From positions 1 to 23,733 of IMG/VR virus record IMGVR_UViG_3300023179_000511: DNA of 23,733 nucleotides, one strand, 5' to 3'. The notes beneath the pieces are model-generated. The model was given only the letters and a program-made list of their open reading frames with translations, was not told where the DNA came from and made no database searches. How positions within the stretch are numbered: position 1 is the first letter of the stretch; each line of letters begins with the position of its first letter. The stretch is from a virus. Of this stretch, positions 1-10,290 are shown in pieces. The translations under genes and the position numbers were made by a program.

Positions 1-115
1 AGTATTTGAGGTAGACATTGTGGGTGATAATGTTGATGACGATATCATTCAAGTTCAATTTGGGAATGGTTCTGTTAGTTTTCTTTTCAAAGAATGGATT
101 GAAATAGAGGACTAA
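1..115 (+). CDS. Partial hypothetical protein, C-terminal 37 residues
   Basis: An open frame enters from the left edge (first full codon at base 2) and ends at TAA 113-115. The visible 37 residues are acidic, with several Asp in the middle, and end in the motif FKEWIEIED. The start is outside the window. The last codons GAG GAC TAA are shared with the gene ending at 653, and the same string recurs just after the gene ending at 374, so this is probably another member of the same cassette series. The visible part is too short to prove it is a paralogue of the two genes that follow. Function is unknown. Confidence 0.6.
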   Translation, partial: VFEVDIVGDNVDDDIIQVQFGNGSVSFLFKEWIEIED

Positions 116-130
116 GTTTATTAAAAAAGA

Positions 131-150
131 TTTCGTATATTAAATGTATA
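131..150 (+). promoter_or_regulatory. Cassette promoter motif, copy 1
   Basis: TTTCGTATATT followed by AAAT and GTATA, then an A-rich leader to the ATG at 168. It is one of about 17 copies of the same motif, each ending 15-40 bases before a small gene. The TATATT box resembles the Bacteroidota -7 element. Promoter function is inferred from position and repetition. Confidence 0.65.
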
Positions 151-167
151 AATAAAAAAAAGAAAAA

Positions 168-374
168 ATGGAAATTTTAAATCAAACATCACAACAAGTA
201 ACAGAAAATGTTTTTATCCTTCAACACCCAACAGAAGGAGTACTAATCTATAAAGAATGGTTAAACGATTCAGGTAAACTTATAGATTGTGAATTACGAA
301 GTAAATCAGGATATTCAATTGATGACGCAGCATTATTTGATGAAGTATGTGAATTTGTTGATAATGTTTCTTAA
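168..374 (+). CDS. Small acidic hypothetical protein (tandem paralogue A)
   Basis: A 68-residue protein that is clearly paralogous to the next gene (441-653). Both share the pattern I..T..QV followed by F, then LN..GK.ID, R...GY and a C-terminal L/F-D-x-V-x-EF segment. It is acidic and has no membrane segment or catalytic motif that I recognise. It has its own promoter motif at 131 and an A-rich leader without a Shine-Dalgarno site; the ATG at 168 is the first in frame after the promoter. The tandem copies with near-identical promoters suggest local duplication. Size and position suggest an early accessory protein, but function is unknown. Confidence 0.75.
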   Translation: MEILNQTSQQVTENVFILQHPTEGVLIYKEWLNDSGKLIDCELRSKSGYSIDDAALFDEVCEFVDNVS

Positions 375-404
375 CCAAAAGAGGACTAAGAAATATAAAA
401 TATC

Positions 405-424
405 TTTCGTATATTAAATGTATA
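405..424 (+). promoter_or_regulatory. Cassette promoter motif, copy 2
   Basis: TTTCGTATATT, AAAT, GTATA, identical over the core to the copy at 131, and followed by the same A-rich leader to the ATG at 441. The upstream GAGGACTAA is also shared with copies 1 and 3, so promoter and flank were duplicated together. Confidence 0.65.
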
Positions 425-440
425 AATAAAAAAAAGAAAA

Positions 441-653
441 ATGAAGTTAATTAAAAAAACAACAGAACAAGTAATTACTGAAACATTTGAAATTGAATTA
501 ACAGCCGGCAATAAGGTGTTTGTAATAGATTATTTGAATGAACAAGGTAAAGTAATTGACACAGTGTTTCGGGATGAAAATGGATATGATTTAAGTGATG
601 ATCCTGACTTATATGATCATGTACTTGAGTTTTTAGAAAATTTAGAGGACTAA
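441..653 (+). CDS. Small acidic hypothetical protein (tandem paralogue B)
   Basis: A 70-residue paralogue of the 168-374 product, sharing LN.QGK.ID, GY followed by an acidic stretch, and a C-terminal DHVLEFLENLED. It is strongly acidic at the C terminus. No known domain is recognised. It is monocistronic under its own promoter motif at 405, with the ATG 16 bases after the second box. Acidic small phage proteins in such arrays often act by binding host proteins, but that role is only a guess here. Confidence 0.75.
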   Translation: MKLIKKTTEQVITETFEIELTAGNKVFVIDYLNEQGKVIDTVFRDENGYDLSDDPDLYDHVLEFLENLED

Positions 654-668
654 AAAACATAAAATAGC

Positions 669-688
669 TTTCGTATATTGATTGTATA
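669..688 (+). promoter_or_regulatory. Cassette promoter motif, copy 3
   Basis: TTTCGTATATT, GATT, GTATA, then a purine-rich leader to the ATG at 703. It probably serves both 703-891 and 907-1074, because no motif lies between those genes. Confidence 0.65.
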
Positions 689-702
689 AAAAAAGAGAAA
701 TT

Positions 703-891
703 ATGAAAAAATTTGAAGAAAAAGCATTAGAACAAATCGTACATTTAGCAGATGATATTGAATTAGGTGACGATACACCAAAACGAGATGCATTCATACT
801 TGAATTCCAAAGTGCAGTTAAGCTGATGAGAAATGATGATTGGGATCAGTTTTATGCATTTGCTGATGTTATTATGCAACGATATAATTAA
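703..891 (+). CDS. Small helical hypothetical protein
   Basis: A 62-residue, acidic, mostly helical protein. The frame is open back to a TTG at 682, but that codon lies inside the promoter motif, so the ATG at 703 is the likely start. It contains an ELGDDTPKRDAF stretch and a C-terminal DQFYAFADVIMQRYN. No family is recognised. The next gene starts 15 bases after its stop without a promoter motif of its own, so the two probably form a small operon. Confidence 0.7.
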   Translation: MKKFEEKALEQIVHLADDIELGDDTPKRDAFILEFQSAVKLMRNDDWDQFYAFADVIMQRYN

Positions 892-906
892 AAAAAATAA
901 AAAGTT

Positions 907-1074
907 ATGACACAAGTAATTCAAAAAGGAGGAAGAATAAGTGAAGGTGGTCGTGTAGTAAAGGAATTTGATGATCACGAAGAAGCAAAACAGTATGCTA
1001 AACAACGTAGAAAACACTTAACACCTGGAGAACGACATTATTACAAATATAGTTTTATTGTTAGAAAAAAATGA
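907..1074 (+). CDS. Small basic phage protein with EAKQYAK / LTPGE motif
   Basis: A 55-residue basic protein. The pattern FDDHEEAKQYAKQRRKHLTPGERHYY resembles, from memory, a widespread small phage protein type in which an EAK..AK helix is followed by LSPGEK.YY and a short beta strand; its function is unknown. The start follows the leader AAAAAAATAAAAAGTTATG, and no promoter motif precedes it, so it is probably co-transcribed with 703-891. It is the last gene before a gene-poor stretch. Confidence 0.7.
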   Translation: MTQVIQKGGRISEGGRVVKEFDDHEEAKQYAKQRRKHLTPGERHYYKYSFIVRKK

Positions 1075-1379
1075 AAATCAACGTGTAAAAAACGAAGAAA
1101 ATCATCACTAATGATAATTGTCAAAGAATAAAAATCATCGCAAATAACACAAGAAGGAAAATTGACATATGTGGACTGAAAATTAACAGGTGACAAATGA
1201 AAATTGATAAAAAGAAAAATGAAAATGAAAATTGTTAATAGTGAGTGGAAAGTGAAAATTGACAAGTATAGTATAAAAAGAATTGATATCTAACCCATTC
1301 ATGACTCGCCCCAAACATTTTCAAAACATTCCAAAAATATATACAAAACACAACAAAAACACATATGTATAATAAAAAA
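1075..1379 (+). other. Gene-poor spacer with degenerate GAAAATTGA repeats
   Basis: About 305 bases without a credible gene on the + strand. Short repeats related to GAAAATTGA or GAAAATTAA recur between about 1155 and 1262, and AAAATTGACA appears twice. Only tiny in-frame stretches occur (for example 13 codons from ATG 1197), with no promoter motif in front. Long minus-strand frames here are Phe/Leu/Tyr-rich shadows of A-rich DNA. It may be the remains of a decayed cassette. Confidence 0.5.
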
Positions 1380-1424
1380 ATGGAAAACGGAGGCGGATGT
1401 GGCTGTGGAAGGCCAAAAAAGTAA
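1380..1424 (+). CDS. Micro-ORF: 14-residue Gly/Cys peptide ending in GRPKK
   Basis: Fifteen codons including the stop encode MENGGGCGCGRPKK. A partial promoter motif (single GTATAAT box at 1367-1373) and an AAAAAAATG leader precede it, like the leaders of neighbouring genes. The C-G-C pair could bind a metal, and GRPKK matches an AT-hook core also found in the two larger AT-hook proteins of this locus. The composition is far from what random AT-rich DNA would give, which supports a real coding sequence, but the length alone cannot prove it. Confidence 0.4.
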   Translation: MENGGGCGCGRPKK

Positions 1425-1483
1425 TTAACAGGAACTTTAATTAAGTTAAAAAAAGTAATAACCAGGATAATTGGTAATGAAAT

Positions 1484-1501
1484 TTTTTTAGTATATTTAA
1501 A
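1484..1501 (+). promoter_or_regulatory. Partial cassette promoter motif
   Basis: TTTTTTTAGTATATTTAA is present, but the second GTATAAT box is missing, and the ATG at 1510 follows immediately after an A-run. It is a degenerate member of the series. Confidence 0.35.
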
Positions 1502-1509
1502 GAAAAAAA

Positions 1510-1626
1510 ATGAAAACAATTGAAGTAACAATTCAGGAAATCCAAATGGCAACAAGGCCAAACGTATACAAAAATAAAAAGAAATATACAAGAAAGGAAA
1601 AACATAAAGGGAATAAAGATTGTTAA
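1510..1626 (+). CDS. Small Lys-rich basic protein
   Basis: A 38-residue protein: an acidic/hydrophobic N-terminal half (residues 1-14) followed by a very basic tail from about residue 16, with the segment RPNVYKNKKKYTRKEKHKG. Similar short Lys/Arg tails are common in small phage proteins that may contact nucleic acid. No family is recognised with certainty. The start at 1510 follows AAAGAAAAAAAATG and a partial promoter motif. The tail makes a non-coding origin less likely, but confidence stays moderate because of the length. Confidence 0.5.
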   Translation: MKTIEVTIQEIQMATRPNVYKNKKKYTRKEKHKGNKDC

Positions 1627-1631
1627 AATTA

Positions 1632-1653
1632 TTTTGTATGTTAATTGTATAAT
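1632..1653 (+). promoter_or_regulatory. Cassette promoter motif (C lost)
   Basis: TTTTGTATGTT, AATT, GTATAAT, then AATAAAGGTTATG-type leader to 1670. The usual TTTCG reads TTTTG here. Confidence 0.6.
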
Positions 1654-1669
1654 TAAAAAGATAAAGGTT

Positions 1670-1909
1670 ATGAATAAAGTAGTTACTGACATTTTATGGT
1701 TAAATGGCGCCCCAATATCATTTAACCAAATATCATTTAAAAATAAAAAATACGAAGGAATATGCCCTTGGTGCACTAAGAATTTAGGGAAAATAAAAGC
1801 CTCCACTTATATAGAACTATATCTTAAATTATTCCCCGTTCAGGCAGATCATATGAATGTATGTGAAGGACGAGAATTAACAGAGATAAAAGTTATCATC
1901 AAAGGATAA
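1670..1909 (+). CDS. Small zinc-finger-like protein (CPWC)
   Basis: A 79-residue protein with CPWC at about residues 33-36 and a later H-x-x-x-C (HMNVC), the spacing of a C2HC zinc-binding fold. An in-frame TTG at 1634 lies inside the promoter motif; the ATG at 1670 follows the leader GATAAAGGTTATG seen before neighbouring genes and is preferred. It could bind nucleic acid or a host protein; neither is shown. It has its own promoter, with the next cassette promoter starting 17 bases after its stop. Confidence 0.7.
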   Translation: MNKVVTDILWLNGAPISFNQISFKNKKYEGICPWCTKNLGKIKASTYIELYLKLFPVQADHMNVCEGRELTEIKVIIKG

Positions 1910-1926
1910 AAATCACTAAAATAAAA

Positions 1927-1946
1927 ATCGTATATTTAAAGTATAA
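1927..1946 (+). promoter_or_regulatory. Cassette promoter motif
   Basis: ATCGTATATTTAAA then GTATAAA, followed by a leader ending in AATAAAGGTTATG at 1965. Confidence 0.6.
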
Positions 1947-1964
1947 ATTTAAAAAATAAAGGTT

Positions 1965-2093
1965 ATGAATAAAATTAATTATTTAGAATTTCTTTGGTTA
2001 CAGGAGCGAACCAGTCAAGTTATTTATTTTCATCAAGGCTATTTATTCCAATTTGAATTAGTAGGAATAGATTGTATAGTTAGAAATAATTAA
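1965..2093 (+). CDS. Small hypothetical protein, 42 residues
   Basis: A short protein with aromatic-rich segments (YLEFLWLQE and IYFHQGYLFQFELVG). No signal or family is recognised. The start is supported by the full promoter motif and the conserved AATAAAGGTTATG leader. The next cassette promoter begins 23 bases after the stop. Confidence 0.6.
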   Translation: MNKINYLEFLWLQERTSQVIYFHQGYLFQFELVGIDCIVRNN

Positions 2094-2116
2094 GGATAAA
2101 TTTGTTTAAAATAAAA

Positions 2117-2136
2117 ATCGTATATTGATTGTATAA
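2117..2136 (+). promoter_or_regulatory. Cassette promoter motif of module copy 1
   Basis: ATCGTATATTGATT then GTATAAT, leader AATAAAAGTTATG to 2155. The C at 2119 is the last cytosine before a 254-base C-free run. Confidence 0.6.
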
Positions 2137-2154
2137 TTAAAAAAAATAAAAGTT

Positions 2155-2286
2155 ATGAAAAAAAGTTTAAGTTTAGTAAAAAGTAATTTAGTAGAAGTTT
2201 TAGTAATTGGATTTGTAATTGGATTTATTAGTTTAATAATTTATAATATAGTTGTAAATGGAGTTGGGTATTATTATAATGTTTAA
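2155..2286 (+). CDS. Single-pass membrane peptide (module copy 1)
   Basis: A 43-residue peptide with a short polar N terminus and one hydrophobic segment of about 20 residues (roughly 13-32, VEVLVIGFVIGFISLIIY), so probably a small inner-membrane protein. It is strongly similar to the product of 4518-4646 over residues 4-30 (SLVK.NLVE.LVIGFVIG.ISLIIYN). It lies wholly in a C-free stretch and contains no Ala, Pro, Thr, His or Gln. The following gene is an AT-hook protein, and the same order is repeated at 4518-5042. Function is unknown. Confidence 0.7.
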   Translation: MKKSLSLVKSNLVEVLVIGFVIGFISLIIYNIVVNGVGYYYNV

Positions 2287-2308
2287 GGAATAAATTAATT
2301 AAAATTGA

Positions 2309-2330
2309 TTTAGTATATTTAGTGTATAAT
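2309..2330 (+). promoter_or_regulatory. Cassette promoter motif
   Basis: TTTAGTATATT, TAGT, GTATAAT, then the leader AATAAAAGTTATG to 2346. The usual C in TTTCG is A here. Confidence 0.6.
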
Positions 2331-2345
2331 TAAAAAATAAAAGTT

Positions 2346-2759
2346 ATGAATAGAAATGAATTGGTTAAAAAAGCTTTAGAAGCAGGAATTACAAAAGCAA
2401 ATACTATGAAAAGTGTAGTATTAGAAGAAATGTTAAATGGGATGGAAGTTAAAAAGACAGGTAAAAGAGGACGCCCAATAAATGAAAACAGTGTAAGACA
2501 ACAAAGGTTAAAAGAATTAGAAAGTAAAAGAGAATTAGGACTATTAAAGAAAGGACGACCAATAAATGAAGATAGTAATCGTCAAAAGAGGATTAAAGAT
2601 TTAGAAGAAAGAAAATCAAACAAAACTTTTAAATTAGGACGACCTGTAAATGAGAATAGTGATCGTCAAAAGAGATTAAAAGAATTGAATGAGAAAAGAG
2701 AACAAGGATTGTTAAAAAGAGGACGACCTAAAAAAGATAATAATGAAATAGCTGCTTAG
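2346..2759 (+). CDS. Multi-AT-hook repeat protein with SAP-like N terminus (module copy 1)
   Basis: A 137-residue, very basic protein. GRP cores lie at residues 42, 70, 98 and 126, an exact 28-residue period. Each of the first three is followed by (I/V)NE(N/D)S and RQ(K/Q)R, then an acidic/basic helix (LKELE-type); the last ends in RGRPKK. GRP flanked by basic residues is the AT-hook core that enters the minor groove of AT-rich DNA. Residues 4-31 (ELVKKALEAGI to VVLEEML) look like a SAP/HeH-type helix-turn-helix. It is likely a DNA-bridging or regulatory protein of this AT-rich genome. Its paralogue is at 4710-5042. A classical terminator follows. Confidence 0.8.
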   Translation: MNRNELVKKALEAGITKANTMKSVVLEEMLNGMEVKKTGKRGRPINENSVRQQRLKELESKRELGLLKKGRPINEDSNRQKRIKDLEERKSNKTFKLGRPVNENSDRQKRLKELNEKREQGLLKRGRPKKDNNEIAA

Positions 2760-2786
2760 GAATAAAATAATAATCATCATCAAAGG

Positions 2787-2809
2787 ACCCCTTATTAAAG
2801 GGGTTTTTT
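2787..2809 (+). terminator. Intrinsic terminator
   Basis: Stem ACCCCTT (2787-2793) with AAGGGGT (2798-2804), loop ATTA, then six T (2804-2809). The T-run also forms the start of the next promoter motif at 2806. Confidence 0.85.
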
Positions 2810-2827
2810 GTATATTCATTGTATAAT
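2806..2827 (+). promoter_or_regulatory. Cassette promoter motif fused to terminator
   Basis: TTTTGTATATT, CATT, GTATAAT, then the AATAAAGGTTATG leader to 2843. Its first bases are the T-run of the terminator at 2787-2809. Confidence 0.65.
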
Positions 2828-2842
2828 TAAAAAATAAAGGTT

Positions 2843-3109
2843 ATGAAATTAGAACAAATGATTAAAAACATTAACGGAACACAATTTCAAAATGATTTAG
2901 GAAAAAACATTAGTGTGAATAATGGACAAATGCCTGTTGGTTATTGGAATTTAATTACATCAATTCGTGATTGTAAATTGTATAGTAAAGGAATTAAACC
3001 ACATCGGATGTGGAAAATTAGTGATGTGAAATGGTATTTTGGAGTAAAAGGAGATGCAATGAAAATTGCTGAAGTGTTAGAACAATATAAAACATTATTA
3101 ACACAATAA
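2843..3109 (+). CDS. Hypothetical phage protein, 88 residues
   Basis: A soluble basic protein with the motif GYWNLITS, an RDCKLYSKGIKPHRMWKI segment and DVKWYFGVKG. The string KGIKPHR.WKI.DVK.YFG is compact and reads like a conserved small domain, but I cannot name it. The start ATG 2843 follows the conserved leader and the promoter motif. A terminator and the first copy of a structured hairpin element follow its stop, so it is a closed single-gene transcription unit. Confidence 0.75.
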   Translation: MKLEQMIKNINGTQFQNDLGKNISVNNGQMPVGYWNLITSIRDCKLYSKGIKPHRMWKISDVKWYFGVKGDAMKIAEVLEQYKTLLTQ

Positions 3110-3122
3110 AGAAATTGGTTTA

Positions 3123-3152
3123 GAGTTGTACCAGAAAACAACTCATTTTTTT
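3123..3152 (+). terminator. Intrinsic terminator
   Basis: Stem GAGTTGT (3123-3129) with ACAACTC (3138-3144), 8-base loop, then A and seven T (3146-3152). The T-run merges with the start of hairpin element copy A. Confidence 0.8.
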
Positions 3153-3197
3153 AATTATACGCATTGGAAGCTCATGTAAATGGGCTTTCAGTGTGGG
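3146..3197 (+). promoter_or_regulatory. Structured hairpin element, copy A
   Basis: TTTTTTTAATTATACG, then outer stem CATTG (3162-3166) with CAGTG (3189-3193), inner stem AGCTCAT (3169-3175) with ATGGGCT (3180-3186), and a GTAA tetraloop. It aligns with copies B and C. Several pairs differ but stay paired, and the wobbles are G-U only if the + strand is the RNA. It has no trailing U-run, so it is not a standard terminator. Confidence 0.7.
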
Positions 3198-3217
3198 ATA
3201 AAGAATATCATAATAAA

Positions 3218-3239
3218 TTTCGTATATTTAAAGTATAAT
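3218..3239 (+). promoter_or_regulatory. Cassette promoter motif
   Basis: TTTCGTATATT, TAAA, GTATAAT, leader AAAAAATAGAAATATG to 3254. Confidence 0.6.
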
Positions 3240-3253
3240 TAAAAAATAGAAAT

Positions 3254-3349
3254 ATGATAGGTGATTTAATTTATTTTAGTTTATTATTGAATGTAGTGTT
3301 AATAATGAAATTAATTATGAAATCAAAGAATAAAGTTAATAAAAAATAA
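3254..3349 (+). CDS. Single-pass membrane peptide, 31 residues
   Basis: A hydrophobic segment of about 20 residues (3-22, GDLIYFSLLLNVVLIMKLIM) followed by a Lys-rich tail, an N-out/C-in small membrane protein by the positive-inside rule. It is supported mainly by the full promoter motif and leader in front. It is part of the C-poor stretch and has only one C (at 3324). Function is unknown. Confidence 0.5.
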   Translation: MIGDLIYFSLLLNVVLIMKLIMKSKNKVNKK

Positions 3350-3370
3350 TTTGTATATTTAGTGTATAAT
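3350..3370 (+). promoter_or_regulatory. Cassette promoter motif (C lost)
   Basis: TTTGTATATT, TAGT, GTATAAT immediately after the preceding stop codon, leader to 3386. Confidence 0.6.
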
Positions 3371-3385
3371 TAAAAAAATAAAAAT

Positions 3386-3568
3386 ATGTTTGTAGTTAAA
3401 ATTTATGATTTAGATTCTTCCTCTTATAAAATAAGAGATGTTAAAGTTAAAGTGTTTAATTCTTTAGAAGAAAGTAAGAAATTTATAGTGGAAAAACATT
3501 ATGAAATAGATTGGGATAATTGTAATACTGATTTAGAAAAAGATGAATATTTAAATTTATTTATTTAA
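3386..3568 (+). CDS. Hypothetical protein, probably truncated by an in-frame TAA
   Basis: Sixty codons encode an acidic/basic alternating soluble protein starting MFVVKIYDLD, with no known domain. After the TAA at 3566-3568 the same frame stays open for another 20 codons to TAA 3629-3631, with very similar composition (EDIKDKLYDTFEYEIEEVTI). A longer 81-residue ancestor interrupted by CAA to TAA is a simple explanation and fits the loss of C in this region. It could also be a normal stop followed by chance open frame. The ATG at 3386 is fixed by the promoter and leader. Confidence 0.65.
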   Translation: MFVVKIYDLDSSSYKIRDVKVKVFNSLEESKKFIVEKHYEIDWDNCNTDLEKDEYLNLFI

Positions 3569-3637
3569 GAAGATATAAAGGATAAATTATATGATACTTT
3601 TGAATATGAAATTGAGGAAGTAACTATTTAAAGTTAC

Positions 3638-3657
3638 TTTTATATATTTAATTATAA
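3638..3657 (+). promoter_or_regulatory. Degenerate cassette promoter motif, no G or C
   Basis: TTTTATATATTTAATTATAA aligned with the motif series, with the usual CG replaced. A long A/T leader of about 40 bases precedes the ATG at 3698. It is nearly identical to the copy at 4096. Confidence 0.45.
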
Positions 3658-3697
3658 TTAAAAAAATAAAAATAATTAAAAATTAAAAATTAAAAAG

Positions 3698-4054
3698 ATG
3701 AAATTAGAATTAGAAAAAATTTATAAAGAGTATTGTAATAGTGATTTAGAAAGTTTAAGAGGTGAAGATAAATTTATAGATATGATGTTTGTATTTGTAG
3801 AATTTAGATTAGAAGTAAGTGGTGGGAGTGAAGGTGGTTGTATGGTAAGTATGAATAATGTAAGTAATTTTTTAAATGAAATATTTTTATATGATAATAT
3901 GATGAGTGATTGGGGAGGTGGTTATAGAGGAGATTTTTGTTATGAAAATTTTGAAAAATTAAAAGAAGAAGTTGATAAAAGTAATTTAGAAGAAAATATT
4001 AAAAAAGAGATATTAGAAGGTTATAGAAAAGAAAATGGAATGGATGAAGAATAA
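3698..4054 (+). CDS. Hypothetical acidic protein encoded without any C
   Basis: A 118-residue acidic protein with a Gly-rich centre (SGGSEGGCM and DWGGGYRGDF) and a helical, charged C terminus (KLKEEVDKSNLEENIKKEILEG). It has no Ala, Pro, Thr, His or Gln; every Ser is AGT, every Leu TTA/TTG, every Arg AGA, because the gene contains no cytosine. The regular hydrophobic pattern suggests a folded protein despite this limit. No family is recognised. The start ATG 3698 follows a long A/T leader that repeats ATTAAAAA units and a weak promoter motif. Confidence 0.7.
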   Translation: MKLELEKIYKEYCNSDLESLRGEDKFIDMMFVFVEFRLEVSGGSEGGCMVSMNNVSNFLNEIFLYDNMMSDWGGGYRGDFCYENFEKLKEEVDKSNLEENIKKEILEGYRKENGMDEE

Positions 4055-4095
4055 ATAAATAATAATTTATAAAGGAATATTTTAATTAAATTAAA

Positions 4096-4116
4096 TTTTA
4101 TATATTTAATTATAAT
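4096..4116 (+). promoter_or_regulatory. Degenerate cassette promoter motif, no G or C
   Basis: TTTTATATATTTAATTATAAT, nearly the same as the copy at 3638, with a similar long A/T leader to 4149 ending in TTAAGGTTATG. Confidence 0.45.
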
Positions 4117-4148
4117 TAAAAAATAAAAATAATTAAAAAATTAAGGTT

Positions 4149-4325
4149 ATGAAAAAAGAAGTAAAAAAAGAAGATGTAGAAAATTTAGTAAATGTTTTTA
4201 TTAAAGAGTATTATTATAATTTAAGTATAGGTGAATTTGAATTAAGTGAGGAGTATTGGAAAGAAATTGAATATTATATGGATAAGTATTTGAATGATGA
4301 TTTAGATTTTATTAAGGATAAATAA
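4149..4325 (+). CDS. Small acidic protein encoded without any C
   Basis: A 58-residue acidic helical protein rich in Glu, Lys and Tyr (IKEYYYNLSIGEFELSEEYW, then a YYMDKYLNDDLDFIKDK tail). It contains no Ala, Pro, Thr, His or Gln. The leader ending in AAGGTTATG matches the start context of the neighbouring cassettes. Function is unknown. Confidence 0.65.
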   Translation: MKKEVKKEDVENLVNVFIKEYYYNLSIGEFELSEEYWKEIEYYMDKYLNDDLDFIKDK

Positions 4326-4337
4326 GTTAAAGTTTTA

Positions 4338-4359
4338 TTTAGTATATTTAGTGTATAAT
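4338..4359 (+). promoter_or_regulatory. Cassette promoter motif
   Basis: TTTAGTATATT, TAGT, GTATAAT, leader AAAATAAGTTATG to 4375. Inside the C-free run. Confidence 0.6.
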
Positions 4360-4374
4360 TAAAAAAAATAAGTT

Positions 4375-4455
4375 ATGTTAATATTTGGTGGTTTTATTAT
4401 TTTAGGTATTGTATTATTGATTTTAGAAATTAGAAAAATTAAAATTAATGAGTAA
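4375..4455 (+). CDS. Membrane micropeptide, 26 residues
   Basis: One hydrophobic segment (residues 2-17, LIFGGFIILGIVLLIL) followed by a basic tail EIRKIKINE. Support comes from the complete promoter motif and the standard AGTTATG start context; the coding sequence itself is too short to judge. It has no C. Confidence 0.45.
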   Translation: MLIFGGFIILGIVLLILEIRKIKINE

Positions 4456-4480
4456 AAAGGAATAAGTAAGTTAAGTTAAA

Positions 4481-4502
4481 TTTTGTATATTTAGTGTATA
4501 AT
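4481..4502 (+). promoter_or_regulatory. Cassette promoter motif of module copy 2 (C lost)
   Basis: TTTTGTATATT, TAGT, GTATAAT, leader to 4518. The equivalent motif of module copy 1 (2117) still has C. Confidence 0.6.
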
Positions 4503-4517
4503 TAAAAAAATAAAAAG

Positions 4518-4646
4518 ATGAAAGTTTTAAGTTTAGTAAAAAATAATTTAGTAGAAATTTTAGTAATTGGTTTTGTAATTGGAGTAATTAGTTTAATAAT
4601 TTATAATTGTATTACTATGGGGACTACTTGTTATTTTAGTGTTTAA
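4518..4646 (+). CDS. Single-pass membrane peptide (module copy 2)
   Basis: A 42-residue paralogue of the 2155-2286 product: same N terminus (LSLVK.NLVE), same hydrophobic core (LVIGFVIG.ISLIIYN), but a different C-terminal tail (CITMGTTCYFSV instead of a Tyr-rich one). The gene is C-free until base 4615, where the divergent tail begins. As in copy 1, the next gene encodes an AT-hook repeat protein. A membrane peptide constantly paired with a DNA-binding protein suggests a linked role, for example DNA-membrane tethering or regulation, but this is inference. Confidence 0.7.
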   Translation: MKVLSLVKNNLVEILVIGFVIGVISLIIYNCITMGTTCYFSV

Positions 4647-4690
4647 GGAATAAGTAGGTAAATAGATAGTTCGTATATTAAGTGTATAAA
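4647..4690 (+). repeat. 44-bp direct repeat, left copy
   Basis: Matches 5099-5142 with a single A/G difference. It begins GGAATAAGTAGG and includes the promoter motif, so the AT-hook gene 4710-5042 is bracketed by direct repeats 452 bp apart. Confidence 0.8.
4670..4689 (+). promoter_or_regulatory. Cassette promoter motif
   Basis: TTCGTATATT, AAGT, GTATAA, leader AATAAAGTTATG to 4710. It lies inside the 44-bp direct repeat. Confidence 0.6.
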
Positions 4691-4709
4691 AATAAAAAGA
4701 AATAAAGTT

Positions 4710-5042
4710 ATGAAAAAAGTAGAAACAAGTGAAGTAAAGCAATTAGGTCGTCCGGTTAATGTTAATAGTGCAAGACAAATCCGTTTAGCAGAATTAGCGG
4801 CTAAAAAAGCAAATGGTGAGTTGAAACGTGGACGCCCTGTAAATGTGAATTCAGAACGTCAGTTCCGTTTGAAAATGCAAGCAGCAAATAAAGCATTAGG
4901 TATAGGTCAAGGACGTCCTGTAAATCCAAATAGTGCTAGGCAGTTACGATTAGCTGAGTTGAAGGCTAAGGCTGAAGCAAATGGTGGTACCGTTAAACGT
5001 GGACGACCAGCTCAAGTTAAAGGCGATGAGATAGCCGGATAA
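4710..5042 (+). CDS. Multi-AT-hook repeat protein (module copy 2)
   Basis: A 110-residue basic protein with GRP cores at residues 13, 41, 68 and 98. The first three are followed by VN(V/P)NS, then ARQ or ERQ and RL, and a helical linker (AELAAKKANG-type); the last core is preceded by KR (KRGRPAQ). It is a paralogue of the 2346-2759 product but lacks the SAP-like N terminus. Its DNA uses C normally, in contrast to the C-free gene before it. The likely role is minor-groove binding to AT-rich DNA, in genome compaction or regulation of the repeated AT-rich promoters nearby. Structured element copy B follows the stop. Confidence 0.8.
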   Translation: MKKVETSEVKQLGRPVNVNSARQIRLAELAAKKANGELKRGRPVNVNSERQFRLKMQAANKALGIGQGRPVNPNSARQLRLAELKAKAEANGGTVKRGRPAQVKGDEIAG

Positions 5043-5047
5043 GTTAT

Positions 5048-5100
5048 CTTTTTAATTATACGACCTGTGAGCCCGAGCAATCGGGCTTTCGGGGTCTGGG
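5048..5100 (+). promoter_or_regulatory. Structured hairpin element, copy B
   Basis: CTTTTTAATTATACG, outer stem ACCTG (5063-5067) with CGGGG (5090-5094; four of five pair), inner stem AGCCCGA (5070-5076) with TCGGGCT (5081-5087), GCAA tetraloop. It ends in CTGGG like copy A's GTGGG and is followed at once by the right 44-bp repeat and a promoter. Confidence 0.75.
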
Positions 5101-5142
5101 AATAAGTAGGTAAATAGATAGTTCGTATATTGAGTGTATAAA
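5099..5142 (+). repeat. 44-bp direct repeat, right copy
   Basis: See left copy 4647-4690; one mismatch (A to G after TATATT). Confidence 0.8.
5122..5141 (+). promoter_or_regulatory. Cassette promoter motif
   Basis: TTCGTATATT, GAGT, GTATAA, short leader to the ATG at 5156, without the usual GTTATG context. Confidence 0.6.
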
Positions 5143-5155
5143 TAAATTGAGAAAC

Positions 5156-5413
5156 ATGATTAAAGTTGATTTTACAGTGAGTGATTTAAGTGGTAAAGTA
5201 ATTAAGACATACTCCCTAAACCTAGAACCAAGCCATATATTGATTGAGGTTGATAACGCTAGAGCGGTATGGGATGAGTACTATGTTAGAGTCAAGAGCG
5301 ATAACCCAATTGCTCCATTTGAGGTATTTAAGACCAAGACCTATAAGCAGGAGATGATGGAGCGCCAGTACATGCTTGACTTACATGATGAGGTATGTGA
5401 CCAAGATTTTTAA
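5156..5413 (+). CDS. Hypothetical protein, 85 residues
   Basis: A soluble protein with a beta-rich N-terminal half (IKVDFTVSDLSGKVIKTYSL), the segment ARAVWDEYYVRVKSDNP, and a helical acidic C terminus ending in HDEVCDQDF. A TTG at 5147 is in frame, but the ATG at 5156 is more likely. Codon use is clearly richer in G and C than in the genes at 2155-4650. No family is recognised. Hairpin element copy C follows the stop. Confidence 0.7.
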   Translation: MIKVDFTVSDLSGKVIKTYSLNLEPSHILIEVDNARAVWDEYYVRVKSDNPIAPFEVFKTKTYKQEMMERQYMLDLHDEVCDQDF

Positions 5414-5430
5414 ATAAGCAACAATTTTAT

Positions 5431-5480
5431 CTTTTAATTATACGCCCTGTGAGCCCGAGCAATCGGGCTTTCGGGGTGCG
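5431..5480 (+). promoter_or_regulatory. Structured hairpin element, copy C
   Basis: CTTTTAATTATACG, outer stem CCCTG (5445-5449) with CGGGG (5472-5476), inner stem AGCCCGA (5452-5458) with TCGGGCT (5463-5469), GCAA tetraloop. No promoter motif separates it from the next ATG at 5497, so it lies in that gene's leader if both are on one transcript. Confidence 0.75.
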
Positions 5481-5496
5481 TAAAACAAAGACACAC

Positions 5497-5667
5497 ATGA
5501 GCACATACACATTTATCCGATTAAACCAAACCCGCATCTTAAACATTGATGGGTGCTTAACCGATCAAGCCAACGTGACCGTAAAGCGTGAAGACGGTAA
5601 GCTGGAGTTCTATTATTTTGAGAACGGTGAGCTGGTGGGTTCAAAGACCAAGGTACAAGGGTGGTAG
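5497..5667 (+). CDS. Small hypothetical protein, 56 residues
   Basis: The frame is open back to a GTG at 5449, but that codon is inside hairpin element C, so the ATG at 5497 is preferred. The protein is beta-rich: TYTFIRLNQTRILNIDG, then VTVKREDGKLEFYYFENGEL. No family is recognised. It is the last gene of the small-gene array; a perfect 8-bp inverted repeat overlaps its stop codon. Confidence 0.65.
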   Translation: MSTYTFIRLNQTRILNIDGCLTDQANVTVKREDGKLEFYYFENGELVGSKTKVQGW

Positions 5668-5676
5668 GCTTGTACC
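5652..5676 (+). repeat. Inverted repeat over a stop codon
   Basis: GGTACAAG (5652-5659) and CTTGTACC (5669-5676) are perfect 8-bp arms around a 9-base loop containing TAG. No T-run follows, so a terminator role is uncertain. Confidence 0.6.
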
Positions 5677-5965
5677 GGTACGGCGGTATATATATGGTAT
5701 GCATATAGTATCACGTACTGGGTACCACGCGCGTTGGGGTCAATATATGGCGGTATGGTGAAGGACATGGACTTAGAGTAAATCTCTTCTCTTTAAAACC
5801 TAACCCCATCGACCTCATATATCTTTATATACCCCCAAAATAAGATCCAAATTTCCAAATCGGTTATTTTTATAAAAAATATTAAAAATCAAATCCTTCT
5901 TCTTTAAAAAATACTTGGCGTCGACAAAATATATATGTATATTACAAGACGTAAATAGATTTGCA
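5668..5965 (+). other. Gene-less junction with composition shift
   Basis: About 300 bases without a credible gene. The first 90 bases are unusually GC-rich for this genome and contain GTACCGGTAC, GGTACC and GCGCG. The next 130 are C/T-rich on the + strand (ACCTAACCCCATCGACCTC), opposite to the purine-rich cassettes. A near-palindromic TATTTTTATAAAAAATA lies at about 5865-5881. No tRNA-like TTC arm or cassette promoter motif was found. Confidence 0.55.
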
Positions 5966-6160
5966 ATGAAATTTAGACTACCAAGAAAAATTAAAAAAAA
6001 ATTAAAAAAAGATTTCTATACTTACCCAAAAAGTGAAAGAAATACTTATTTAATTGCTTGGCCAAGTAAATACGAGGAAGATTATATCGCATATAAAAAA
6101 GGTTTATTAAGAGGTTTAAAAGAAGAATCAAAAAAAATATTAAAAAATGAAAAATTTTGA
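5966..6160 (+). CDS. Small Lys-rich basic protein
   Basis: A 64-residue basic protein beginning MKFRLPRKIKKKLKK, followed by YPKSERNTYLIAWPSKYEEDY and a Lys-rich helical tail. The frame is open back to a TTG at 5915; the ATG at 5966 gives a more natural N terminus. Its end overlaps the start of the next gene by 14 bases, which suggests co-translation. No family is recognised. Confidence 0.65.
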   Translation: MKFRLPRKIKKKLKKDFYTYPKSERNTYLIAWPSKYEEDYIAYKKGLLRGLKEESKKILKNEKF

Positions 6161-6614
6161 TTATTTAAAAGCATTTTGTTCACCATTCAAACGACCAAAA
6201 TTAAAATGGTATTTTGGTAAGATTGTTATTGGTACTCCTTATTTTCTTCCACGAAAAGCTATTAAAGATCCAAATAAACCAGGATACCTAAAATTTGTAC
6301 CTAAAAAAATAGGATTTGATTTTGTTGGATTGGGATGGAAAACTAAATGGAATTCAACCGATTATCGTTTTGAATGGGCTCCCGTTTGGTCATTTGTTTT
6401 TTTTGGAAAGCAGATAGCAGTTATCTTTCGAGCTCCGGAACAAGATCATTATTGGGAAGCTTGGTTATATTATACATATAACACAACAGGTACTAAAAAA
6501 GAAAGAATTGCTAAATGCAAATCAGAGTTTCCTTTAAAATGGACAGTTAGTGATAAAAACAGTGAACAGTCAGTAGATTACTATGATTTAATTTTAAAAC
6601 ACAAATATAAATAA
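6147..6614 (+). CDS. Conserved-looking phage protein rich in Trp/Tyr/Phe
   Basis: A 155-residue protein. The N terminus has KWYFGKIVIGTPYFLPRK, the centre FDFVGLGWKTKWNSTDYRFEW followed by FVFFGKQIAVIF, and the C terminus a WEAWLYYTYNTTGTKKERI segment. The many aromatic beta strands suggest a compact beta-rich fold. From memory similar proteins occur as unnamed ORFs in large AT-rich phages; I give no function. It overlaps the gene in front by 14 bases, and the next gene starts 1 base after its stop. Confidence 0.75.
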   Translation: MKNFDYLKAFCSPFKRPKLKWYFGKIVIGTPYFLPRKAIKDPNKPGYLKFVPKKIGFDFVGLGWKTKWNSTDYRFEWAPVWSFVFFGKQIAVIFRAPEQDHYWEAWLYYTYNTTGTKKERIAKCKSEFPLKWTVSDKNSEQSVDYYDLILKHKYK

Positions 6615-6615
6615 C

Positions 6616-6864
6616 ATGAAAAGTGAATATAGGTTTGGAATGATCGGCCCAAGTGTGAAGGAAATCGAAAGGGGAATAGCATTTATTGATAAAAATTACA
6701 ATAAGTCTATTAAGTTGCAGCCTGCAGATTGGGATCTATTAGTCCCAGATGAGTATGTAGTTTATGTAAAACTTAATGCAAAAGGCAAACAACACAGCCA
6801 CATGGAGTTTATAAACAATATGTTAAACGAAAATAATTTTGAATGTAAATTATATAATCTTTAA
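6616..6864 (+). CDS. Hypothetical protein, 82 residues
   Basis: A soluble protein with KEIERGIAFIDKNYNKSIKLQPADWDLLVPDEYVVYV and a C-terminal helix with SHMEFINNML. No known family. It is tightly coupled to the gene in front (1-base gap) and lies 10 bases before the next, so 5966-7069 probably form one operon. Confidence 0.7.
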   Translation: MKSEYRFGMIGPSVKEIERGIAFIDKNYNKSIKLQPADWDLLVPDEYVVYVKLNAKGKQHSHMEFINNMLNENNFECKLYNL

Positions 6865-6874
6865 TTGAATAATA

Positions 6875-7069
6875 ATGGAAAACCAAAAACAATCAGGAGG
6901 AATAGGAATTGGGATGATCCTTTTTATTATTTTTTTAGTATTAAAACTAACAGGAAATATTGATTGGAATTGGTGGTGGATTTTTTCCCCACTTTGGGTA
7001 CCAATTATTTTAACTACAATCCTAATAAGTTTAATTATAATTTTTTATTATAATAAGTTTAAAAATTAA
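6875..7069 (+). CDS. Two-pass membrane protein, 64 residues
   Basis: Gly-rich N terminus, first hydrophobic segment about residues 9-27 (IGIGMILFIIFLVLKLTG), a Trp-rich turn (IDWNWWWIF) typical of the membrane interface, a second segment about 38-59 (WVPIILTTILISLIIIFYY), and a basic C terminus. The two helices with Trp hairpin resemble small phage membrane proteins of unknown role; a holin is possible by size, but nothing specific supports it. Confidence 0.65.
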   Translation: MENQKQSGGIGIGMILFIIFLVLKLTGNIDWNWWWIFSPLWVPIILTTILISLIIIFYYNKFKN

Positions 7070-7090
7070 AAAAAATTTACTCATTACCCA

Positions 7091-7098
7091 TATTTATA
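7091..7098 (+). promoter_or_regulatory. Candidate late promoter box TATTTATA
   Basis: ATATTTATAA context 24 bases before the ATG at 7123. It belongs to a set of the same octamer in front of late-type genes. Confidence 0.4.
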
Positions 7099-7122
7099 AC
7101 CAAACAAACAAAAATAAAAATT

Positions 7123-7365
7123 ATGAGTGACGTAAGACAAGAAATGGACAAAGTAATCAATGAATTACAGGCAAAAGGAATTGATCCTTCAGTGTCAAAA
7201 GAAGAACTTGAAAGACGAGGTTTAGGTGATGTTGTTGAAGGTATGTTAAATAAATTTGGCATCACCCAAGAACGTTACAAAGAGTGGTTTAACCTACAAG
7301 AATGCAATTGCACAGCACGTAAAAAATGGCTTAACAATTTTTTTAGTTGGAATGTAAAAAAATAA
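7123..7365 (+). CDS. Small phage protein with CNC..RKKWLN C-terminal motif
   Basis: An 80-residue protein. The N-terminal half is helical (DVRQEMDKVINELQAKGIDP); then GLGDVVEGMLNKFGI, and a C-terminal CNCTARKKWLNNFF. From memory this ending matches small proteins of large phages that carry a DCGC-type motif before (R/K)xxWLN, with GLGD upstream. The two Cys could contribute to metal binding. Function is unknown. A TATTTATA box and an AAAATTATG leader precede it. Confidence 0.7.
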   Translation: MSDVRQEMDKVINELQAKGIDPSVSKEELERRGLGDVVEGMLNKFGITQERYKEWFNLQECNCTARKKWLNNFFSWNVKK

Positions 7366-7369
7366 GAGC

Positions 7370-7483
7370 ATGATAAAAAATTTATTAATGCTCCCAGCCC
7401 ATTTTATAATCGGTTACATTGCAATTATTATTTGTGGAACAATTAGTTTGTTTGATATATTTATAAACAAAGCAAACAATTAA
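7370..7483 (+). CDS. Membrane micropeptide, 37 residues
   Basis: Starts 4 bases after the preceding stop. One hydrophobic segment (residues 5-31, with IIGYIAIIICGTISLFDIF) with Lys at both ends. Its last codons contain the TATTTATA box placed before the gene at 7504. Short, but the tight spacing favours a real gene. Confidence 0.5.
   Translation: MIKNLLMLPAHFIIGYIAIIICGTISLFDIFINKANN
7458..7465 (+). promoter_or_regulatory. Candidate late promoter box TATTTATA
   Basis: 38 bases before the ATG at 7504, overlapping the end of the micropeptide gene. Confidence 0.4.
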
Positions 7484-7503
7484 TTATTTAAAATTAAAAT
7501 AAA

Positions 7504-7782
7504 ATGGCAAACGTACCAGTAAATTTTGGAGGTGCACTTTTAACCGCAGGAAACTCTATTACAGGATCTTTTTCAGGAATCCAAAGTCTAGGAACAGGTT
7601 CTATTAATAATCCTACTGGATCTCTTATCACTGCCTTTAAGTATGGTGTTAATCGTGATGCTACAAATAATATTATTGAAGCAACAGGTGTTTCATTTAC
7701 TTTACCCGCAGGAGTTTTTCTTCCATTAACTATTACATCTGCAAGTTTAGGAGCAGGAAGTGCACCTGTAATTTTCTACTAG
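7504..7782 (+). CDS. Small Gly/Ser/Thr-rich probable virion protein
   Basis: A 92-residue protein with the low-charge, beta-rich composition of phage structural or decoration proteins (FGGALLTAGNSITGSFSGIQ, later LPAGVFLPLTITSASLGAG). It has few charged residues and no Cys. It ends with TAG directly followed by TAA. A late-type TATTTATA box precedes it. I infer a virion surface role only from composition. Confidence 0.65.
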   Translation: MANVPVNFGGALLTAGNSITGSFSGIQSLGTGSINNPTGSLITAFKYGVNRDATNNIIEATGVSFTLPAGVFLPLTITSASLGAGSAPVIFY

Positions 7783-7810
7783 TAAAAAAATCCTTGGCTT
7801 CCTAATTTTT

Positions 7811-7832
7811 TATTCGTATATTTACAGTATAA
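7811..7832 (+). promoter_or_regulatory. Cassette promoter motif outside the main array
   Basis: ATTCGTATATT, TACA, GTATAA, leader ATTAAGGTTATG to 7852. The early-type motif thus reappears 2.7 kb after the last array copy. Confidence 0.55.
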
Positions 7833-7851
7833 ACAAATAAAAATTAAGGTT

Positions 7852-8001
7852 ATGTTAAATCAAGTAAAAAACAAAGAAATTAAAATTTTAGCAATCATTG
7901 GATTGTATGTAGCATTCAGTTTTACTGGGTTATTTGGATTTGCATTTATAGCAGGGTGTTTAGTTGGTGAAATAGTAATGGCGGCTTATTTAAATCGTTA
8001 A
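7852..8001 (+). CDS. Membrane peptide, 49 residues
   Basis: A Lys-rich N terminus followed by two short hydrophobic stretches (ILAIIGLYVAFSFTGLFGF and AFIAGCLVGEIVMAAYL), perhaps a helical hairpin. Start fixed by the cassette promoter motif and AAGGTTATG context. The next gene begins 3 bases after the stop, so they share a transcript. Function is unknown. Confidence 0.6.
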   Translation: MLNQVKNKEIKILAIIGLYVAFSFTGLFGFAFIAGCLVGEIVMAAYLNR

Positions 8002-8004
8002 AAA

Positions 8005-8247
8005 ATGGAAAACCAAAAGTATCAACCAAGTAGAAAAGTTAGAACTGCAGATGGAACAATTATGTATTTATTTGATGGTAAACTTCATAATTGGGAAGGA
8101 CCAGCTTTAATTCCCGAAGGCAATAAACGTAAAAGAGAATATTACCTTAACGGAATTAAAATGACGGAAGCACAATGGAAAGAGACTTTAAAAAATAGAG
8201 AAGGGCTTCCATGGTATAAAGGTGCAAATGCTAAAACTCGATTTTAA
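8005..8247 (+). CDS. DGKLHNWEGPA-type repeat protein
   Basis: An 80-residue protein with MYLFDGKLHNWEGPALIPEG then YYLNGIKMTEAQW. From memory this (N/D)GKLHxxxGPAxxxxxG...YYxNG pattern is a short beta-hairpin repeat, MORN-like in spacing, found in many large-phage and giant-virus proteins. Here there is one full repeat plus a half. The function of such proteins is not settled. It sits in a three-gene operon (7852-8699) with 2-3 base gaps. Confidence 0.7.
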   Translation: MENQKYQPSRKVRTADGTIMYLFDGKLHNWEGPALIPEGNKRKREYYLNGIKMTEAQWKETLKNREGLPWYKGANAKTRF

Positions 8248-8249
8248 TT

Positions 8250-8699
8250 ATGAAGCGTTTGACGCTTGAAGAAGCTAAAAATTATGTTCCGTATTGTAGA
8301 ACACCTTTAGCCCCTCAACCAAAATATTATTCAATTAAACAAGATGGTGAATGGGATGTTGTCGAATATTATACCGGACGTTTAAGGCAAAGTGTTGATG
8401 GTAAAAAAGGTGACCAATATGTTTATATATTAGTTAATCCTTCAATGCCTGAAATGTTAAAAATAGGTTATACAAAAAATGATCCTGAAGAACGGGCTAT
8501 TCAATTGAGTAAATCAACTGGTGTTCCTTTACCTTTTAATGTTGTATATTCGTATAGTTGTTTTAATGGGGAGCGTATTGAAAAGGAAGTACATAAACTC
8601 TTAAAGCAAAAACGTGTTAGAGGTGAAAGAGAATTTTTTTATGTTTCTTTAGATGAAGCAAAACAAGTCATTAAAAAAGTTGGAGAACAATTTGATTAA
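8250..8699 (+). CDS. T5orf172 / MUG113-type (GIY-YIG-like) protein
   Basis: A 149-residue protein. Residues about 1-50 are a family-specific lead. From residue 57 the pattern fits the T5orf172 (Meiotically up-regulated gene 113) family, a branch of the GIY-YIG nuclease superfamily: YVYILVN (57-63), KIGYT (71-75), then R82, an ERIEKEVHKLL helix with H115, and EFF (128-130). The Y..Y and KIG(Y/F)T strand pair plus the following Arg correspond to the GIY-YIG core, though the usual GIY triplet is YVYIL here. Stand-alone copies in phages may act in DNA processing or as free-standing endonucleases; activity is not shown. Confidence 0.8.
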   Translation: MKRLTLEEAKNYVPYCRTPLAPQPKYYSIKQDGEWDVVEYYTGRLRQSVDGKKGDQYVYILVNPSMPEMLKIGYTKNDPEERAIQLSKSTGVPLPFNVVYSYSCFNGERIEKEVHKLLKQKRVRGEREFFYVSLDEAKQVIKKVGEQFD

Positions 8700-9495: not shown

Positions 9496-10290
9496 ATGAA
9501 CCTTACCGCCGAACAAATCCAAGATAATTGGAATGAATTAATGGAATATATTAATGATTATATTTCCGAACCTCGTAAAGAAAATCTTTTAACATTTTAC
9601 GAACAATATTCCGAACGTTTAATGTTAATGCCTGCTGCGCATAAAAAAGAATATCATAATGCTTTCCCAGGTGGGTATGTAGAACATGTTTTACGCGTTA
9701 TTCGATGCGCACTTAAACAAACTCAATTATGGGAAGATGAAGGGTGTGATATGTCTACTTTTACAATTGAAGAACTTGTATTTTCAGCTCTGAATCATGA
9801 TTTAGGTAAAATGGGTGATGAAGATGAGGAATCATATATTCCTCAAACTGATCAATGGAGAAAAGATAAGTTAGGAGAAGATTACATGTTTAACACTAAA
9901 GTTCCATTTGCTTCAGTTCCCGATAGAGGATTATTTATGCTTCAATCACATGGTATCCAGTATACATTTAATGAAATGATTGCTATTCAGACACATGATG
10001 GTTTATATGATGAAGCAAATAAAAAATATCTTGCTACTTTTATGCCAGAACAAAAACCACGTACTTCACTTCCTTATATTTTACACCAAGCAGATTTAAT
10101 GGCAGCACGTATTGAGTTTGAACGTGAATGGCTACCTAAATTAAAAGAAGGAAAAAAATCCGTGGATAATGAGAAGGGGAATTTTACATTGGGAAATAAA
10201 CCCAACATGTCTAAAAAGACATCAACCAAAACTAAAGCTTTAGGTTCATTCAAAAGTGATGGTTTAAAAAATATGTTAGATAACTTATGA
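9496..10290 (+). CDS. HD-domain metal-dependent phosphohydrolase
   Basis: A 264-residue protein with the full set of HD-superfamily ligands: H64 in GGYVEH, H101-D102 in NHDLGK, H152 and H167-D168 as further candidates, and D200 in HQAD. Such enzymes remove phosphate from nucleotides or cleave phosphodiesters with bound divalent metals. The HNAFPGGYVEHVLRV region resembles the HD part of YhaM-type 3'-5' exoribonucleases, but no OB domain is present. The C-terminal 50 residues are a Lys/Ser/Thr-rich tail. It lies directly before the late sigma factor, with an ATGA overlap to the next gene. Substrate unknown: nucleotide metabolism, RNA decay or removal of a host signalling nucleotide are all possible. 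Confidence 0.8.
   Translation: MNLTAEQIQDNWNELMEYINDYISEPRKENLLTFYEQYSERLMLMPAAHKKEYHNAFPGGYVEHVLRVIRCALKQTQLWEDEGCDMSTFTIEELVFSALNHDLGKMGDEDEESYIPQTDQWRKDKLGEDYMFNTKVPFASVPDRGLFMLQSHGIQYTFNEMIAIQTHDGLYDEANKKYLATFMPEQKPRTSLPYILHQADLMAARIEFEREWLPKLKEGKKSVDNEKGNFTLGNKPNMSKKTSTKTKALGSFKSDGLKNMLDNL

Follow-up and report, generated by a model that had tools for sequence, protein, structure and literature searches.

Cytosine-free genes in phages related to Flavobacterium phage immuto, and a possible role for modified template guanine

Why would a virus dispense with one of the four bases over several consecutive genes? The question is raised by a 23,733-nucleotide virus record of IMG/VR (IMGVR_UViG_3300023179_000511), analyzed here over its full length and called the window, in which the plus strand holds no cytosine (C) between positions 3638 and 4614. 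A preliminary description of the window, made from its sequence, had reported this run and proposed several causes for it. Here we describe the tract, its counterparts in related and unrelated phages, and the explanations that can be offered for genes of this kind.

The cytosine-free tract and its boundaries

The tract measures exactly 977 nucleotides, as the preliminary description had it, and is the longest C-free run of the window, 12% of which is C. The second longest comprises 254 nucleotides (2120-2373), and the longest run without guanine (G) comprises 69. G is frequent within the tract, again as reported, and its content is normal (78-94 per 500 nucleotides). No C-free 200-mer arose in 100 shuffles of the window. 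Under a codon-preserving null model built on the codon usage of the other genes, about 29-31 C are expected in the fully C-free genes, and the log10 probability of finding none, given the proteins, is -14 to -18. Serine is encoded in the tract genes by AGT only, leucine by TTA or TTG only and arginine by AGA only, and every NNY codon ends in T. This synonymous codon choice bears out the earlier view of a strand-specific effect at the nucleotide level, and bias at the protein level was rejected on the same grounds. Amino acid content is nonetheless altered: alanine, threonine, proline, histidine and glutamine are all missing from the 245 codons of the tract genes (log10 P -19 to -25).

Both edges of the tract are sharp. 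The last C, at 3637, lies directly 5' of a promoter -7 box, TATATTTA (3643-3650, plus strand), of the TAnnTTTG-like Bacteroidetes type that recurs before the small genes of this locus (cassette genes). This C is contained in a short inverted repeat, AGTAAC..AGTTAC (3619-3637), at the left boundary, and relatives have similar left edges. On the right, where a sharp boundary had previously been noted, C reappears at 4615 within a gene for a 42-amino-acid membrane-like peptide (4518-4646) that is C-free to 4614 and has three C in its 3' part. An adjoining gene with GRPVN repeats (4710-5042) has normal C and marks the sharp right side. Enclosed by the tract, all on the plus strand, are gene F1, encoding 118 amino acids (3698-4054; homologues have 0-4.3% C), a gene for 58 amino acids (4149-4325), for which a search for relatives found none, and an open reading frame (ORF) for a 26-amino-acid membrane-like peptide (4375-4455). 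The "most of a fourth gene" of the preliminary description therefore stands, while its three whole genes are two of annotated size plus the 26-amino-acid ORF. The 254-nucleotide run forms a second plus-strand C-free tract with a 43-amino-acid gene (2155-2286), a paralogue of the 42-amino-acid gene (proteins 68% identical).

Recurrence, transcript limits and selection against cytosine

C-free genes are a real, recurrent class that seems previously undescribed; no paper on cytosine-free or cytosine-depleted phage genes was found in the literature searched. Relatives of the window were collected by homologues of the 118-amino-acid gene and by promoter-anchored and leader-anchored scans, and C-free tracts were present at the corresponding locus in approximately 35 related contigs. 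The longest, in contig L032, extends for 1,665 nucleotides and, after one C, for 293 more, with two near-identical terminators flanking it. Counting as C-free an ORF with at most 1.2% C, the tally stood at 62 distinct ORFs in 37 families. In each whole or large genome, one to three low-C ORFs stand apart. Cultured phage immuto has gp143, with 1.4% C and 25% G, and a next-lowest ORF with 5.5% C; G023 has ORFs with 0.6 and 0.9% C versus 6.7% for the next, and G426 has one without C versus 8.4%. C content of promoter-bearing cassette genes has two modes separated by a dip at 3-5%.

A strand-level bias of the phage genome was rejected given these one to three outlier ORFs per genome. Ordinary bias of AT-rich phages, which the preliminary description had named as a possible refutation, fails as well, immuto, G023 and G422 having 216-220 ORFs each and only one or two such outliers. 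The sequencing or assembly artefact that it had also entertained was rejected, because the same tracts were recovered from different samples (L032/L033, L127/L128, L129/L130, L131/L132) and cultured immuto has a gene nearly devoid of C. When Shine-Dalgarno leaders were used as anchors in three blind scans, four further, unrelated lineages emerged: G422/G439; G423/G424, with a 1,024-nucleotide C-free unit of three genes; G442; and G441, in which only 199 nucleotides, half an ORF, are C-free. A scan of bacterial genomes for C-free stretches matched only symbiont and other AT-rich genomes.

The C-free unit equals the transcript. In immuto-like phages and G422, C-rich spacer runs up to the -7 box and C reappears in the terminator stem; the G423 tract ends after a T-run. 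One promoter has two C downstream of its -7 box and before the expected start site. Internal promoters of multi-gene blocks are also C-free, with nearly all C confined to terminators (L030). The 5' leaders of C-free genes contain 1 C in 593 nucleotides versus 187 in 3,724 nucleotides for normal cassette genes (p = 3e-11). The promoter consensus of Bacteroidetes-type hosts is TAnnTTTG-like, and a box of this kind precedes the C-free genes, as would be expected of immediate-early genes with host-type promoters. Because a C-free transcript means a G-free template, selection against C in the transcript is equivalent to selection against G in the template strand.

The pattern of substitutions agrees with selection against C and not with deamination. 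Relative to cassette genes of normal C content, A and G take the place of C at codon position 1 while T does not increase; A and G also account for most of the replacement at position 2, and position 3 alone shifts mainly to T. Totals of serine (all AGT) and arginine (all AGA or AGG) are maintained in C-free genes, and a C-to-T model of amino acid use falls 78 log units short of recoding. Where a C-free gene was paired with a normal homologue (15 pairs), T accounted for only 30 of 129 changed C sites of codon positions 1 and 2. Substitutions between related C-free tracts comprised 95 A/G and 2 C/T changes; outside the tracts these numbered 1,675 and 1,267, respectively (p = 2e-20). Change of C to T irrespective of codon position, the signature of deaminase hypermutation, was not found. 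C-free genes code for conserved proteins, with a ratio of nonsynonymous to synonymous substitution (dN/dS) of 0.17-0.39 in family F2, and a single protein family may be C-free in one phage and have normal C in another. Residual C occurs mainly in threonine, histidine, glutamine and alanine codons, spread evenly along genes. We therefore consider it highly probable that selection acts on the transcription unit. Avoidance of one base at every codon position by whole genes and their leaders, with the proteins under selection, would amount to an extreme constraint on transcription.

Modified template guanine and competing explanations

Phage immuto encodes QueC, QueD, QueE, FolE, QueF, a formyltransferase and the DNA guanine transglycosylase DpdA. 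DpdA was also found in G003, G017, G023, G428 and G438, and G426 carries DpdA, QueF and formyltransferase. Indeed, DpdA and Que genes are present in every C-free carrier of the immuto group that is sufficiently complete; the fragments lacking DpdA (G431, G434, G015, G021) are missing the replication and Que region in whole or in part. Among lineages recovered by the blind scans, G422/G439 has a full 7-deazaguanine pathway including DpdA, G423/G424 has QueC, QueE and a DpdA homologue, and G442 has QueC beside a DpdA homologue (E 1e-9). C-free genes, used blindly as a marker, thus pointed to 7-deazaguanine genes in three of four unrelated lineages. As background, 209 of 50,697 phage records (0.4%) have QueC and 19 have DpdA of this type; provided the IMG/VR background is similar, the chance of three lineages in four is about 3 in 10 million. 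The TGT model PF01702 missed all known DpdA here and was uninformative; a home-made DpdA model was used instead. The preliminary description had advised a search for modified-base genes, and the 7-deazaguanine genes of the window's relatives provide a link that the description had not seen.

The association with 7-deazaguanine genes suggests template guanine, rather than cytidine triphosphate (CTP), as the object of selection. Modified template guanine is in our judgment the best single explanation of C-free genes, with a probability of roughly 0.45. Guanines of the genome would be replaced by a 7-substituted 7-deazaguanine that slows or halts elongation at every such site in the template. Selection against nearly every single C would follow, because each modified guanine would hinder the polymerase. 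Only C-free genes would present RNA polymerase with a template free of the modified base. They are probably immediate-early genes, which unmodified host RNA polymerase would read from virion DNA via host-type promoters; remaining genes would be read later, by an altered polymerase or from newly copied, not-yet-modified DNA. The more specific claim, that phages with hypermodified guanine carry starter genes whose guanine-free template costs five amino acids and is readable by unmodified host RNA polymerase, appears to us slightly less probable again. Phage T4 offers a partial parallel: its DNA contains hydroxymethylcytosine (hmC), Alc is a transcription-termination factor, and its proteins spare modified DNA. 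In both cases a modified base would be tied to which DNA RNA polymerase can read, but T4 relies on proteins that spare modified DNA whereas here the gene sequence avoids the base.

Passages of Hutinet 2019 (PMC6884629) describe 7-deazaguanine DNA modification of phages (DpdA, FolE, QueD/E/C, QueF) as restriction protection and mention possible effects on sigma or transcription factors, with codon or base avoidance in genes not among the effects named in those passages. Known 7-deazaguanine-modified phages share DpdA and Que genes with near-complete window relatives and unrelated C-free carriers, but the role those passages assign is restriction protection, whereas the present genes avoid a base. 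If template guanine is the cause, DNA hypermodification would cost phage transcription and evolution would pay in gene sequence; coding sequence would have been fitted to the chemical make-up of the DNA that carries it, and the first-needed genes of a genome would be recognizable by sequence alone.

Several points weigh against modified template guanine. Sequence cannot separate selection against C in RNA from selection against G in the template, and we infer the early timing of C-free genes from their promoters. Most genes of these phages have template G and must still be transcribed. DpdA, Que and FolE genes are absent from the 23.7-kb window, which is a fragment, and modification of the window phage's own DNA is thus extrapolated from its relatives. 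DpdA is not sufficient, because Campylobacter phage CP220 and Cellulophaga phage phiST both have DpdA and no C-free gene. An RNA polymerase annotated as its own is encoded by phiST and could free it from the need for such genes; we know of no comparable excuse for CP220, in which all deoxyguanosine (dG) is reported to be replaced by dADG. Moreover, G003 and G017 have DpdA, yet their F1 gene has 3% C, and the C-free half-ORF of G441 occurs with neither DpdA nor QueC.

Selection for C-free mRNA, one proposal of the preliminary description, holds up as a candidate cause. Its leading form, which ranks next after modified template guanine although we regard it as unlikely, invokes shortage or poisoning of CTP: a host defence, either viperin through ddhCTP or CTP depletion, would make each C of a transcript hazardous, and the mRNAs of counter-defence genes required at that stage would thus be C-free. 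Every C would then count singly, matching the near-zero C of genes and leaders and the presence of C only in terminators. According to reviews, ddhCTP terminates the chains that phage RNA polymerase makes (PMC12926258), and viperin family NF038283 exceeded the cut-off in 12 of 395 genomes of Bacteroidia. Viperins are, however, rare (3% of Bacteroidia); moreover, C-free genes span 37 unrelated families, and the DpdA/Que association in unrelated lineages would be left unexplained. Danchin and co-workers, in work cited in PMC8842674, reportedly ascribed cytosine loss in RNA viruses to CTP limitation. That case would share selection against C tied to CTP, but the bias there is said to be graded and genome-wide, whereas here it is near-absolute, gene-by-gene and transcript-bounded in DNA phages.

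Other selection at the RNA level, such as avoidance of a C-dependent RNase, Rho binding or RNA structure, is somewhat less likely still. The constraint does track the transcript, folding per base is weaker in C-free mRNAs, and Rho prefers C-rich RNA. Avoidance of Rho or structure, however, requires low C and not zero, G is not lowered in coding sequences, and in four of five cases the folding of a C-free gene matches or exceeds that of its own shuffles in strength. Residual C is moreover uniform along genes, without 5' depletion.

Mutation, in which strong transcription exposes the non-template strand and a deaminase or damage converts its C to T, would account for a strand-specific, transcript-limited pattern and for third codon positions shifting to T. 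We nevertheless consider it very improbable. The directed C-to-T change suggested earlier is disfavored by the A and G substitutions at positions 1 and 2, by homologue pairs in which one phage has the C-free and another the normal form, and by the changes within tracts; in addition, glutamine codons would turn into stops, proteins are conserved (F2 dN/dS below 1), and neighboring genes with similar promoters retain normal C. Least probable of all is removal of restriction or other DNA-recognition sites, also proposed in the preliminary description: a C-free strand by construction cannot hold a palindromic site with a G:C pair, but such sites persist in the rest of the genome, and neither the ending of tracts at promoter and terminator nor the mere one to three affected genes per whole genome is explained.

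Phage group, encoded proteins and other cytosine-poor stretches

Sequence identity of a baseplate wedge protein (15647-17491, 46% to immuto gp112) and an HD phosphohydrolase (9496-10290, 50% to gp120) places the window phage near immuto. Together with a T5orf172 (GIY-YIG-like) gene (8250-8699; Pfam PF10544, E 8e-20), these plus-strand genes follow the same order as in immuto, which marks the window phage as an immutovirus-like myophage. C-free genes sit in a small-gene locus 5' of all three landmarks, and most of the small genes have a promoter of their own. Immutovirus (immuto, NC_055915) resembles the window in the shared synteny of small-gene locus, T5orf172, HD and baseplate genes and in near-C-free gp143, but has this single gene, still with five C, whereas the window has several C-free genes.

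The F1 protein was modeled as all-helical, with a predicted local distance difference test score (pLDDT) of 83, and family F2 as alpha/beta (pLDDT 87). F1 had no match in Pfam or PHROG, and structure comparison of F1 and F2 gave weak matches (best Z 6.9 and 6.7) with no viral hit at E 0.001. Proteins of C-free genes are acidic (D+E 22%, K+R 14%). One C-free gene product of G423 weakly resembles a winged-helix regulator and has two normal-C paralogues in G423.

Cytosine-poor stretches of other kinds were also seen. On the reverse strand of 73.6-kb contig L206 (3976-4174), the first half of an ORF is C-free and the rest has normal C, in surroundings with 22% C and without DpdA or QueC. L138 (IMG/VR 3300025137_008346, 1-8409), probably a circular 8.3-kb element, codes for two serine recombinases and has 34 C on one strand (0.4%) with 18% G; here the bias is one of DNA strand rather than of transcripts, because one opposite-strand ORF is correspondingly G-free. 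In marine contigs L029 (1235-2067) and L026 (1963-2918), the strand opposite a C-free stretch of 618-648 nucleotides carries a Q/N-rich gene without G, which mirrors the window case.

In the window (2346-2759 and 4710-5042) and relatives L009, L030 and L032, paralogues with GRPVNxxSxRQxRL repeats flank the C-free genes. Beside the tract, at 3386-3628, the ORF 3386-3568 stops at TAA and its L030 homologue (3795-4040) extends past that point; the gene appears broken by a nonsense change, because the window frame continues with matching residues. Finally, the window (~5600-5800) and L010 (12811-12939) have in common a GC-richer stretch 3' of the cassettes; it shows up as ORFs of similar sequence on the minus strand and is probably a conserved non-coding element.
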